Below are positions 5,359 through 64,000 of a stretch of 64,000 nucleotides of DNA, piece after piece. The notes under the pieces are model-generated. The model searched no databases. It saw only the letters and a list, made by a program, of their open reading frames with translations, and was not told the origin of the DNA. Where the stretch lies: positions 308,017 through 372,016 of the IMG/VR virus record IMGVR_UViG_3300042367_000228. One strand, given 5' to 3'. This DNA comes from a virus. How positions within the stretch are numbered: the first letter of the stretch is position 1; every line of letters starts with the position of its first letter. The position numbers and the translations under genes are program-made.

Positions 5359-5559
5359 TTAGTCTTCTTCGTGTATAACTAAAGAATATTCAACACTAGG
5401 GAATGGATAGAGAATGTACTCTTCGGCATCTTCTCTATTCTCAAAAGTTTCCATTTCGCATCGAGTGTCGGTATATTTAAAGACATGGATCAATCCGTCG
5501 TCATCTTGGTTAACCGAAACTGCATGTGTATTAAAAGTTATTGTACAAATTTTAATCAT
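5359..5559 (-). CDS. Hypothetical protein
   Basis: 66 acidic residues, RBS GGGAG. No recognised domain; contains a YTDTRCEMETF segment. Between the epimerase and nucleotidase genes. Confidence 0.6.
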   Translation of the reverse strand: MIKICTITFNTHAVSVNQDDDGLIHVFKYTDTRCEMETFENREDAEEYILYPFPSVEYSLVIHEED

Positions 5560-12274: not shown

Positions 12275-12276
12275 TA

Positions 12277-12288
12277 GGCCCCGCTGTA
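12277..12288 (+). repeat. GGCCCCGCTGTA element, copy 1
   Basis: Between the TAA at 12272-12274 and the ATG at 12294; occupies the place where a Shine-Dalgarno would be expected. Confidence 0.85.
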
Positions 12289-13181: not shown

Positions 13182-13183
13182 TA

Positions 13184-13195
13184 GGCCCCGCTGTA
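13184..13195 (+). repeat. GGCCCCGCTGTA element, copy 2
   Basis: Starts three bases after the stop of the 295-residue gene; a partial second copy (TGCTGTACACATAT) follows at 13201. Confidence 0.85.
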
Positions 13196-13582: not shown

Positions 13583-13583
13583 A

Positions 13584-13595
13584 GGCCCCGCTGTA
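13584..13595 (+). repeat. GGCCCCGCTGTA element, copy 4
   Basis: Begins one base after the TAA of the 68-residue gene. Confidence 0.85.
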
Positions 13596-14569: not shown

Positions 14570-14734
14570 GTACGCATAACTACAGCAGGTGTCGCGCAAA
14601 CTGTATTATCTATGCGCCCTATAACTGGACAGATGTATCACAGTGATGGAATTGTTGAACTGTAGCAACGACATAACCACCTACCCATTTGGATGAACAT
14701 GAGATGTACCTTTACAAAACTCATTACAGGTTAT

Positions 14735-14746
14735 GGCCCCGCTGTA
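14735..14746 (+). repeat. GGCCCCGCTGTA element, copy 5
   Basis: In the gene-free interval 14525-15065, just before a run of hairpins. Confidence 0.85.
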
Positions 14747-14980
14747 CACGTAAGGTTAAAAGAAGGAGTAGCACTCCTACGACTGATTATATGGTTAGCA
14801 TTGTATAATCAGTCCGCCGTCATATATCACCAGGACGGAGCTCGAGGTACCGGATGACCGCCTCTGTAATGCTCTAATGCTAAGACAAAAAACGAACTCG
14901 ACAAATGTCTTTTTTGCCACATGGCCTAGTTGGGCCATTGTGACTATTTGAATCTGACAAAATGAAATAAAAGAAAAATA

Positions 14981-17909: not shown

Positions 17910-17911
17910 AA

Positions 17912-17923
17912 GGCCCCGCTGTA
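17912..17923 (+). repeat. GGCCCCGCTGTA element, copy 6
   Basis: Two bases after the TAA of the coiled-coil gene. Confidence 0.85.
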
Positions 17924-20614: not shown

Positions 20615-20858
20615 AAGAGATTTAGCTTACAATACACACTTAGAATACTTAGATTATTCTAACTATAAAATGGATTGGGACAGCGCATGGTTATACTGTG
20701 CTACCTGTACATATAAAGACATGTATGATTGGCGAATGCTTACTCCATATGAATTTCGTAATGATCTATACATACACAGCTGGCATGCCGCTTCACGAAA
20801 GGACAACTTTCCAGCATTTGTATTACCAGTTCGAGATAGAGGCCCCGCTGTAACATGA
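20607..20858 (+). CDS. W-R-L-P-T mini-protein, copy 12, tail from GGCCCC element
   Basis: 83 residues. WDSAWLYCAT, DWRMLT, LPVRDR, then GPAVT and the stop, all encoded by a GGCCCCGCTGTAAC element at the 3' end. The element therefore changed the C-terminus. Confidence 0.72.
   Translation: MIRRDLAYNTHLEYLDYSNYKMDWDSAWLYCATCTYKDMYDWRMLTPYEFRNDLYIHSWHAASRKDNFPAFVLPVRDRGPAVT
20841..20852 (+). repeat. GGCCCCGCTGTA element, copy 7 (in-frame)
   Basis: Translated as G-P-A-V at the end of copy 12, and two bases before the ATG of copy 13. Confidence 0.9.
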
Positions 20859-23079: not shown

Positions 23080-23107
23080 ATATTTTTTTAAACACTACAG
23101 CAAGCAA

Positions 23108-23119
23108 GGCCCCGCTGTA
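23108..23119 (+). repeat. GGCCCCGCTGTA element, copy 8
   Basis: In the 5' leader, 16 bases before the ATG at 23136 and just before the RBS AGGAG. Confidence 0.85.
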
Positions 23120-28607: not shown

Positions 28608-28636
28608 TTTACAAATCAACAGCATTTTGCTATAAT
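28608..28636 (+). promoter_or_regulatory. Early promoter
   Basis: TTTACA-17-TATAAT; for 28669. Confidence 0.87.
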
Positions 28637-30478: not shown

Positions 30479-30677
30479 CATCACACACGAACGAGCTATC
30501 GCTAAACACGCCGGCGTACTACCATCACAACTTCGTAAGCTATCAACAGGCAAGTATTTCGTTGATATAAATGTTCCACTTGAACCATTGTGCGATGCAC
30601 GTTATGATTTCACAGTTGAGTTTTCGCAAATACTAATTGGAACTATTGCTGATGTAGGCCCCGCTGTTAATGCGTAG
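30471..30677 (+). CDS. Hypothetical protein ending in a GGCCCC element
   Basis: 68 residues. The last residues (VGPAVNA) are encoded by GGCCCCGCTGTT and flanking bases, so the element was captured in frame. Confidence 0.6.
   Translation: MSNITHERAIAKHAGVLPSQLRKLSTGKYFVDINVPLEPLCDARYDFTVEFSQILIGTIADVGPAVNA
30657..30668 (+). repeat. GGCCCCGCTGTT element, copy 9 (in-frame)
   Basis: Lies within the coding end of 30471-30677, translated G-P-A-V; ends GTT rather than GTA. Confidence 0.85.
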
Positions 30678-32613: not shown

Positions 32614-32826
32614 ATGGCAATTGAGATTGGTAAACAATTTCCAAATCTAGTAACGATTGATGAAGCCGTTATGATTGCCTTTATGACCCCAGGATGGCGG
32701 CTTCCTACAGAACAAGAGTACATTGACCATTACGAGAGCTTAAAGTTTTGTTGGGATCAATCAGATGTAGAACAGTCAAATCCAAACATAAGAAACGGCT
32801 ATCTTAAATTAGTGAGAGATTGCTAA
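32614..32826 (+). CDS. W-R-L-P-T mini-protein, copy 23
   Basis: 70 residues. IDEAVMIAFM, GWRLPT, KLVRDC; shortened core. Confidence 0.7.
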   Translation: MAIEIGKQFPNLVTIDEAVMIAFMTPGWRLPTEQEYIDHYESLKFCWDQSDVEQSNPNIRNGYLKLVRDC

Positions 32827-32838
32827 GGCCCCGCTGTA
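32827..32838 (+). repeat. GGCCCCGCTGTA element, copy 10
   Basis: Directly abuts the TAA of copy 23; followed by TAGGAGG for copy 24. Confidence 0.85.
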
Positions 32839-33107: not shown

Positions 33108-33136
33108 TTTACACACCCCGCTGTAAATGCTATAAT
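33108..33136 (+). promoter_or_regulatory. Early promoter containing CCCCGCTGTA in its spacer
   Basis: TTTACA-17-TATAAT; the 17-base spacer carries CCCCGCTGTA at 33116-33125 and spacing is preserved. For 33169. Confidence 0.85.
33116..33125 (+). repeat. CCCCGCTGTA element, copy 11 (promoter spacer)
   Basis: Core of the repeat embedded between the -35 and -10 boxes. Confidence 0.75.
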
Positions 33137-52694: not shown

Positions 52695-52831
52695 AACAAA
52701 CAGTAACAACAGTCCAAACTATAGTAGCAATACACGCTATACTATAGACTATAGTGATAAACGCTATAGTAAGAGTACAAGAGATCTCTCGTATAGCGTG
52801 ACTATAGTGAACTATAGTAATAAGACAAATA

Positions 52832-52843
52832 GGCCCCGCTGTA
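52832..52843 (+). repeat. GGCCCCGCTGTA element, copy 12
   Basis: In the ACTATAGT-rich interval; a partial GCTGTACG follows 18 bases later. Confidence 0.85.
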
Positions 52844-54405: not shown

Positions 54406-54550
54406 TTATATTAAAAACCGGACCCTGTACTCTGGTACTAGGTCGGTCTATAAATGCAAAAAACGGCAAAAACATGGGGCTACAGACCGCTAACGACGCG
54501 GGCCAAAAACCAAAGATGAGTCTTAATTATAGGTGCCTGGATACTAAAAA

Positions 54551-54562
54551 GGCCCCGCTGTA
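54551..54562 (+). repeat. GGCCCCGCTGTA element, copy 13
   Basis: Intergenic, preceded by AAAAA, followed by CATAT as in copy 1. Confidence 0.85.
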
Positions 54563-56759: not shown

Positions 56760-56766
56760 GGCAAAA

Positions 56767-56778
56767 GGCCCCGCTGTA
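56767..56778 (+). repeat. GGCCCCGCTGTA element, copy 14 (forms a hairpin)
   Basis: Seven bases after the TAA of 56352. GCCCCGC here is complemented by GCGGGGC at 56791, so this copy can fold. Confidence 0.85.
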
Positions 56779-58272: not shown

Positions 58273-58677
58273 ATGTCAAAATTACTAAAAAACACTGTTA
58301 ACGCAATTAACGCAATAGTAAACAGCAAAACCGAGGAGTTCAAGCTTCCAGCTTATGTGGTGCTTGCTGATGTTAAACGACGCAACGCGGAAAACGAATG
58401 CTTGTACAACGAACAGCAGTTACTTGCTGGGGAAGCGTTGTTAGCAGGTATTGAGGATGTGTACTTATGCAGTAGAGTTTTTTTGAACTACAGACAACGC
58501 TTTATTGCAGTTAAAGTCAACGCACCGAGCTTTAAGGACAAAGTAAGTTTACGCGCTGCGAAACTAGATGCGTGGTGCGATGCAAACGGCATTGTTAAGG
58601 AGTATACGAGACACGGACACATTGTATACAGAGCTAACACGGACGCACTGGATAACATAAGCACAGTGGCTGCATAG
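58273..58677 (+). CDS. Hypothetical protein
   Basis: 134 residues, RBS CGGAGC. Mixed alpha/beta, basic; stop TAG merges into a GGCCCC element. No domain recognised. Confidence 0.62.
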   Translation: MSKLLKNTVNAINAIVNSKTEEFKLPAYVVLADVKRRNAENECLYNEQQLLAGEALLAGIEDVYLCSRVFLNYRQRFIAVKVNAPSFKDKVSLRAAKLDAWCDANGIVKEYTRHGHIVYRANTDALDNISTVAA

Positions 58678-58688
58678 GCCCCGCTGTA
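58677..58688 (+). repeat. GGCCCCGCTGTA element, copy 15
   Basis: Its first G is the G of the TAG stop of 58273-58677. Confidence 0.88.
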
Positions 58689-61756: not shown

Positions 61757-61762
61757 TAAATA

Positions 61763-61774
61763 GGCCCCGCTGTA
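61763..61774 (+). repeat. GGCCCCGCTGTA element, copy 17
   Basis: Six bases after the stop of the 25-residue gene; followed by GCAT as in copy 4. Confidence 0.85.
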
Positions 61775-61810
61775 GCATTACATGATATTGAAACGTATGG
61801 CACACATTGA

Positions 61811-61820
61811 CCCCGCTGTA
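61811..61820 (+). repeat. CCCCGCTGTA element, copy 18
   Basis: Preceded by TTGA rather than AGG. Confidence 0.75.
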
Positions 61821-61992: not shown

Positions 61993-62022
61993 TTGACTAT
62001 TCGAAATGCCATATGCTATAAT
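61993..62022 (+). promoter_or_regulatory. Promoter followed at once by an element
   Basis: TTGACT-18-TATAAT; the element CCCCGCTGTA begins two bases after the -10, at the expected transcription start. Confidence 0.6.
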
Positions 62023-62023
62023 A

Positions 62024-62033
62024 CCCCGCTGTA
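62024..62033 (+). repeat. CCCCGCTGTA element, copy 19
   Basis: Directly downstream of a TATAAT box. Confidence 0.75.
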
Positions 62034-62248
62034 ACATAGCACGTTTTAGTATATGCGTGTAACACTTACACAATATTAAAACAATATATGTAAAATTTAC
62101 GTTTTAACGCATGTACACAGCACGTTTATACACTAAGCAATACAGCTATAGCACTATACACAATAAAACAGCTTACACGCAAATTTTGCGCTAGTTAGTA
62201 TGGATTGTATGATATTCCATATAGAGGAATCACCATGCTATATCAATA

Positions 62249-62258
62249 CCCCGCTGTA
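62249..62258 (+). repeat. CCCCGCTGTA element, copy 20
   Basis: Preceded by ATA as in copy 19. Confidence 0.75.
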
Positions 62259-62341: not shown

Positions 62342-62476
62342 ATGCTAACACAAAAATTATATATGTATAACATGTCCAGCGCAACCAAATTGCGTGTAAT
62401 GATGACACACGGTGATGCAGCCGCTAGACTAATCACAAAGGTTAAACGAGTTAAAGGATATCAGGCCCCGCTGTAG
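62342..62476 (+). CDS. Small basic protein ending in a GGCCCC element
   Basis: 44 residues, no clear Shine-Dalgarno. The last four residues Q-A-P-L and stop TAG come from CAGGCCCCGCTGTAG. Confidence 0.52.
   Translation: MLTQKLYMYNMSSATKLRVMMTHGDAAARLITKVKRVKGYQAPL
62464..62475 (+). repeat. GGCCCCGCTGTA element, copy 21 (in-frame, gives stop)
   Basis: Read in the third frame relative to copies 7 and 9; its TA plus the next G forms the stop of 62342-62476. Confidence 0.88.
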
Positions 62477-63473: not shown

Positions 63474-63819
63474 AATATCACCTATTTAAAGTATGTTATG
63501 CGCTTTTTTTGTGCATACTTAATGCACAATAAATGCGCGTTAAAAGTAAAGTAAAAATAAATTGTTAAAAAGCTAACTTAAAAATGCGTTTTTTTATGCG
63601 CTTGTTTTTTTAAGTTGTGCATAGTTTACAGCATATAAAAAAAAAGTAAAATTTAATTGCAATTTATTTTTACAATTTAGCACTAAAAATGCGCATTTTT
63701 AAAAAAAGTGTATAAAAAACAATAACTTATAATTTAAAAATAATTTTATTTAATGCGCATTTTTTGCGCATAATGCGCATTTATAGCGTTTTTAATGCGC
63801 ATTTTTAGTGCTATATATT
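63474..63819. other. Very AT-rich region with ATGCGCAT palindromes
   Basis: No gene. Exact ATGCGCAT at 63689, 63753, 63773 and 63795, with partial copies (TGCGCA, ATGCGCG, ATGCGTT) from 63500 on, in A/T-rich surroundings. Confidence 0.65.
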
Positions 63820-64000
63820 GCAAGCGCATAGCAAGCGCATAGCAAGCGCATAGCACAGGCCCCGCTGTTAGCGCATAGCAAGCGCATAGCATAGCAAGCG
63901 CATAGCATAGCAAGCGCATAGCATAGCAAGCGCATAGCATAGCAAGCGCATAGCATAGCAAGCGCATAGCATAGCAAGCGCATAGCATAGCAAGCGCATA
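63820..64000. repeat. Tandem repeat array AGCAAGCGCATAGCAT
   Basis: Three 11-base units AGCAAGCGCAT, then a GGCCCCGCTGTT insert, then about seven 16-base units AGCATAGCAAGCGCAT running off the window. The open minus-strand frames across it are repeat artefacts. Confidence 0.9.
63858..63869 (+). repeat. GGCCCCGCTGTT element, copy 22 (inside tandem repeat)
   Basis: CAGGCCCCGCTGTT (14 bases) interrupts one repeat unit; both sides continue the unit. Confidence 0.88.

Follow-up and report, generated by a model that had tools for sequence, protein, structure and literature searches.

A tandem array at the end of a T4-type jumbo phage record is split by a block of 14 bases, and the question is whether this block is a moving unit, an artefact or a copy of a signal that also stands elsewhere. 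The window analysed here is a stretch of 64,000 bases that corresponds to bases 308017-372016 of a 372016-base virus record (G000) and forms the record's end; the record's contig stops inside the array. The record carries a T4-type Gp23 capsid gene, the DNA of which is about 70% like that of jumbo phages such as Xanthomonas phage XbC2, Erwinia phage Kaldavass and Escherichia phage PBECO4. The block, CAGGCCCCGCTGTT, sits in phase within an array of AGCAAGCGCAT units (Table 1), and when the flanks are joined without it (AGCA + AGCGCAT) five consecutive perfect 11-base units result, which bears out the claim of an earlier note that a repeat unit is interrupted here and resumes on the other side. 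That note had also allowed for an assembly error. The last 2057 window bases recur without a difference in a second record, IMGVR 3300043775_001719 (G002), which carries the same insertion and continues beyond the array, so the block is not an error of one assembly. The flanks hold no target duplication. In-phase resumption by itself would occur by chance about once in 11 cases, a tandem array having no intrinsic unit boundary; more weight lies in the match of 13 of the 14 inserted bases to a consensus, WGRCCCCGCTGYD, that was derived independently at other sites and in other phages. The block is therefore discrete, as the note had proposed; the independent consensus spans 13 bases and agrees with the insert except at its first base.

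The core of this consensus, CCCCGCTGT, occurs 22 times in the 372-kb record, every time on the plus strand and every time between 320.3 and 371.9 kb, that is, in the last 52 kb, and neither the core on the opposite strand nor a reversed-pattern control is found anywhere in the record (0 each). Among 14-mers matched with up to two mismatches, 0.12 were expected in shuffled sequence and 17 were found, 16 of them the element. The longer form WGRCCCCGCTGYD fits 19 of the 22 cores; the exceptions, at 33116, 62024 and 62249, keep the core alone and lack AGR. In the window, AGRCCCCGCTGT has 17 exact and five one-mismatch copies, these five being CCCCGCTGT cores that differ in AGR; the opposite strand has none of either kind. 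Around the clusters there are ten one-mismatch copies, nine of which differ at the first base only, and decayed copies are nearly absent. Letter preferences were taken from 118 dereplicated instances at 44 loci of other AT-rich phage records, selected by CCCCGCTG; loci with a GC content of 0.5 or more were excluded by rule (among the newer loci L165, L172, L173, L175, L178, L180, L181, L182 and L184-L190, mostly coding repeats), and the coding repeat L183 was excluded by hand. Across these instances, position -2 is G in 118/118, position -1 is G or A (90/10%), the core's ninth letter is always a pyrimidine (T 71%, C 29%), and C never follows it; position 11, which the selection did not force, is Y in 118/118, and position 12 is C in 0/118 and G in 36%. 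We conclude that the block is a copy of a constrained, orientation-locked 13-base cis signal, WGRCCCCGCTGYD, that is not peculiar to the array. The literature searches gave no published description of the element, and those by sequence string matched unrelated papers only.

Table 1. Array parts and element copies in the 64,000-base window, with their setting and their state in the related record G001
Positions	Strand	Feature	Remarks
12276..12288	+	Element copy, 5 nt 3' of stop codon	G001 counterpart
13183..13195	+	Element copy, 5 nt 3' of stop codon	
13325..13337	+	Element copy in leader behind sigma70-like promoter	G001 counterpart
13583..13595	+	Element copy, 4 nt 3' of stop codon	G001 counterpart
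14734..14746	+	Element copy, TGG start, possibly coding	Conserved in G001
17911..17923	+	Element copy, 5 nt 3' of stop codon	G001 counterpart follows different upstream gene
20840..20852	+	Element copy forming ORF end (..APL stop)	ATG 12 nt past core start
23107..23119	+	Element copy in leader behind sigma70-like promoter, directly 5' of AGGAG	G001 counterpart
30656..30668	+	Element copy within ORF 3' end	Missing at aligned G001 place
32826..32838	+	Element copy, 3' of stop codon and 5' of ribosome site	G001 homology starts at element
33113..33125	+	Core without AGR in -35/-10 spacer of predicted promoter	Conserved in G001 paralogues
52831..52843	+	Element copy, intergenic	
54550..54562	+	Element copy, intergenic	G001 counterpart
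56766..56778	+	Element copy, 10 nt 3' of stop codon	GCTGC in G001 counterpart
58676..58688	+	Element copy, 2 nt 3' of stop codon	
59653..59665	+	Element copy, AGA form	Directly before 32-base tandem repeat
61762..61774	+	Element copy, first in terminal cluster of five	
61808..61820	+	Element copy, TGA start, terminal cluster	
62021..62033	+	Core without AGR	Immediately 3' of predicted promoter -10 hexamer
62246..62258	+	Core without AGR, terminal cluster	
62463..62475	+	Element copy forming small-ORF end (..APL stop), terminal cluster	
63819..63855	+	Left part of array, AGCAAGCGCAT units	First unit TGCAAGCGCAT; ends AGCA
63856..63869	+	14-base block CAGGCCCCGCTGTT splitting array	0 mismatches; consensus part 63857-63869; same in G002
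63870..64000	+	Right part of array	AGCGCAT, one 11-base unit, then 16-base units up to contig end

The last 52 kb of the record hold many small genes, mostly rightward, and from 11 to 62 kb of the window most ORFs lie on the element's strand; on account of these many small genes and of strong sigma70-like promoters, this is probably the early region. About 40 sigma70-like promoters of the form TTTACA-17/18-TATAAT are predicted there and stand mostly apart from the element, and several copies precede genes that have no predicted promoter of their own. These positions bear on the idea that the element is a true stoperator or operator, at which a hypothetical phage protein bound to the double-stranded 13-mer would block initiation and elongation and silence early genes at a later stage of infection, with no pause involved. 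The build is that described for the L5-type stoperators, asymmetric 13-mers present in more than twenty copies in promoters and short intergenic spaces and oriented with transcription (PMC9283540), and copies are accordingly seen in a promoter spacer (33116), right behind a -10 hexamer (62024), in leaders and between genes. The L5-type sites, found in cluster A mycobacteriophages, bind a repressor of the phage that has an HTH and a stoperator domain. The sequences of element and stoperator are unrelated, however, the L5 sites belong to a temperate mycobacteriophage and not to a T4-type jumbo phage, and the core is wholly invariant here; only two of the 22 copies, 33116 and 62024, overlap or touch a predicted promoter core, both without the AGR end, and a block would silence the promoterless genes 3' of several copies. 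We consider a pure stoperator unlikely. A promoter box of MotA type, that is, a promoter element at fixed spacing to the -10 hexamer, was tried and rejected, no downstream hexamer offset being clearly enriched in 76, 22 and 16 instances. As a separate observation, early promoter cassettes of nearly the same sequence (TTTACA-17/18-TGCTATAATATGTTTTTACTTA...GGAG), about 40 in number, stand between small genes at 23051-57930 of the window, for example at 28608, 32057, 36449 and 55735, and also in a related record; they resemble the mobile promoter cassettes that have reportedly been found in T4-type phages.

The relation to stop codons raises a different reading. With ORFs of at least 60 codons, six of the 22 copies lie 0-6 nt after a stop codon, against a simulation mean of 0.96 and with 0/2000 simulations giving as many; with ORFs of at least 80 codons the figure is 4/22, against a mean of 0.47 (2/2000). 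This preference may be due in part to the TAG or TAA spelled by the element's own flank. Copies that adjoin stop codons, often in a short intergenic space between a stop and the next start, are what would be expected of a site that acts in the RNA, in mRNA processing, decay or translation, and so are the orientation lock and the confinement to one part of the genome; the start-associated sequences (SAS) of cluster K mycobacteriophages provide a precedent, being described as 13 bp long, asymmetric, nearly all in one orientation, found in a single genome part and able to overlap the upstream stop codon (PMC3203893). SAS stand 3-7 bp before start codons and contain AGGAG, whereas the element has no Shine-Dalgarno, lies at 12 to hundreds of bases from the start codon and, in other phages, forms clusters in ORF-free stretches. 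Folding gives neither consistent pairing nor consistent openness (more open than shuffles in 14/22 and 44/79), and a hairpin, an intrinsic terminator and a structured RNA were rejected; Rfam has no match at the element; its hits in 14 loci, three tRNAs and one group I intron, lie at other places. An RNA-level site appears improbable. Downstream of the 14737 copy, at 14737-14800, there is a short perfect hairpin, AGGAGTAGCACTCCT, that is kept in G001.

The relative G001 (372173 bases; about 75% identity, with 67-90% in most aligned pieces) allows the copies to be compared place by place. Ten of the 22 have a counterpart, one is absent from an aligned place and 11 have no assessable counterpart. 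The core is exact in the counterparts of 12279, 13328, 13586 (for these three, gene ends and leaders were compared by eye), 14737, 17914, 23110, 32829, 33116 and 54553, and reads GCTGC in that of 56769. G001 contains three such GCTGC forms and a few weaker look-alikes, and two of its cores (L086:3107 and L089:12919) look like coding chance (AGPAV and NGPAV read from the sequence); its contig ends (L085 start, L089 end) share sequence, which suggests a complete, circularly assembled genome. The absent copy, 30659, lies in the 3' end of a gene, and the difference there is no clean 14-base gap. In a marine lineage the element stands 29 bp before a small gene in 7/9 homologous loci (sequence was inspected for six of the nine, and another scan had shown the element in the remaining three); it is absent from two, in which the protein is 40% identical, and these two contigs carry a GCTGC-form pair elsewhere. 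With all copies in one direction and 10/22 kept at matching places, the element behaves as a constrained control site would, and not as one would expect of a free mobile element.

This bears directly on the main claim of the earlier note, that the block moves or is copied. A mobile element of minimal size, some 14 bases copied en bloc in the manner of the short GC clusters of yeast mitochondria, would fit the clean in-phase interruption of the array at boundaries that are those of the consensus, the present/absent difference at 30659 and the 11 places without an assessable counterpart, and a small GIY-YIG-like nuclease gene lies near clusters at 18 loci. Set against these are the single orientation and the retention at matching places, the missing target duplication and the lack of any empty array site among 200 fetched loci; the array is present in two of these, both from G002, and both records with the array have the block filled. 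No clean gain is seen elsewhere either. The nuclease, a protein of about 105 aa that scores below the Pfam cut-off, lies about 1 kb past the cluster in one lineage (L011:8864-9241, L049:11227-11553 and 16 other loci); with nine strong hits and one weak hit in 35 records, its family is missing from the element carriers G000, G001, G004 and G028, and it was rejected as the mover. The mobile yeast clusters are likewise short GC-rich blocks in AT-rich DNA, but the element is one-stranded, invariant and kept at its places. The block may move as a 14-base unit, and the earlier interpretation as a whole is partly supported, yet a mobile element proper seems quite unlikely to us. Less likely again is that the element links phage gene cassettes for recombination, as a short sequence shared at module borders: G000 and G001 have different upstream genes at 32829 and 17914, with homology from the element onwards, but homology continues across both sides at 23110 and 54553, a linker would need neither strict core nor strand lock, and 13 bases are short for homologous exchange, all of which makes this reading very improbable. 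Overall, we regard the element as a kept control site, and the array copy is best read as the gain of a whole block, and this gain may well be new.

As to what is controlled, we tentatively favour, on the strength of sequence features, an ops- or stoperator-like site that would act on elongating RNA polymerase, since the ends fit the consensus pause in part and the centre is invariant; action on the transcribing polymerase best explains the one-way reading, the early-gene location, the invariant letters and the scant decay. The L5 stoperators and the ops of RfaH represent two ways in which such a site may work (PMC9283540, PMC5995543), and the element is similar to both, although it has been proven to belong to neither class. 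In the mechanism that we propose, the ends of the element (GG...TGY, next base not C) would make the polymerase pause, a hypothetical factor would recognise the invariant CCCCGC on the exposed non-template strand, and this factor would then stop, hold or modify the polymerase between early genes, like ops/RfaH or the mycobacteriophage stoperators; the array copy would have arisen through gain of the whole block. The consensus pause includes G-11, T-3 and G-2. It has also been described as containing -10G, -1Y and +1G (PMC10268239). GG, TG and Y are present in the element, while +1 is G in only 36% and never C, and the A variant falls at -10, the pause's own key G. The register was noted before Y at position 11 was found, and GGN6TGY arises on either strand in 2166 of 200000 shuffles of the 12-mer, so that, with about 1% of shuffles holding the same frame, the agreement is suggestive only.

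For ops itself, a C at position 12 is described as abolishing the pause, and RfaH as reading the central bases (PMC5995543). Both ops, at 12 nt, and the element have pause-like ends and an invariant centre, are strand-specific and occur in leaders; the element differs in its CCCCGC centre, its many intergenic copies, a +1 of A, G or T, and phages without a NusG-family protein. A NusG/RfaH-family factor encoded by the phages was rejected, PF02357 being found in 0/30 records, and a host factor is possible. The polymerase reading has to contend with the three of 22 window copies that lack AGR and with at least one copy in a gene end. A more specific version, which we hold to be doubtful, is that in this uncultivated T4-type phage group the pause and CCCCGC together would form the address at which a non-NusG factor boards the polymerase between early genes; the ops principle would thus have been realised a second time, by unrelated means, and multiplied across the early region of a phage by gain of whole 13-mers. 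Little is known of how early genes are regulated in T4-type jumbo phages whose hosts are not in culture, and a strictly conserved, orientation-locked 13-mer offers a handle on it that marks the group and predicts where the polymerase or a factor acts. If a pause and a factor unlike NusG are involved, this would bear out an idea put forward in work on RfaH, namely that consensus pauses serve unrelated proteins likewise (PMC5995543); if the block was gained whole, the array would be a rare clean 14-base insertion.

The element recurs in tens of other uncultivated phage records, often paired 34-57 bp apart. A scan with the 15-mer AGGCCCCGCTGTACA gave 30 stretches against 22 for the reversed control, and ten of the 30 are GC-rich single matches like those of the control, whereas a pair pattern gave 37 viral stretches, among them the GC-rich coincidences L042, L051 and L058, and its reversal gave 1; it is the clusters that are informative, not single AGGCCCCGCTGTACA matches. 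A looser pair pattern gave 60 stretches, some of them GC-rich or coding repeats. All 29 carrier records checked are one-stranded (reversed control, 0), which speaks to strand and not to frequency, as the records were picked because they match. Spacings from one copy to the next concentrate at 34-36, 42-44 and 53 bases (52 AT-rich pair loci; counts not dereplicated). Small protein families are common to the window and many carriers, a 66-residue protein (window 5359-5559) recurring in 24 loci, a GP88 gene is present in 13/29 carrier records, and the carriers appear from their sequences to be one broad group of uncultivated T4-type aquatic phages. Twelve named phages, relatives by capsid or GP88, contain 0-2 cores each, about the chance level, and two cluster loci gave no useful DNA matches to cultured phages. 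Residence in host genomes was considered and rejected: the pair pattern matched 11 stretches in genome_contigs, of which ten are GC-rich (0.58-0.72) and were judged chance or repeats, and the eleventh, on a 3.7-kb contig binned as Flavobacteriaceae (L079), resembles the phage form.

In a large part of the carriers the cluster lies in an ORF-free stretch, with most pairs spaced by 34-57 bp (counts not dereplicated), and is followed by conserved GAGTAACCATTTTAACTATGCC and CACACTTT-type repeats. At L052:11220-11600 and the loci alignable with it (L011, L015, L032, L038, L043, L045, L049, L053, L056, L060, L069 and L071), the ORF-free sequence after the pair contains GAGTAACCATTTTAACTATGCC, TGATCTAGATCACAC and repeated CACACTTT at steps of about 11 bases, and this stretch looks like an origin or iteron region. 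At L013:10300-11010 (minus strand) and in its relatives, a match to the MjaI restriction endonuclease (PF09568) lies between two direct element copies 721 bp apart, at the place of a pair that is spaced by 34-51 bp in other phages. Aminotransferase class I/II genes are carried by element-bearing phage contigs at L013:5691-6890 and L046:10007-11209, and L013 also carries a fatty acid desaturase gene.
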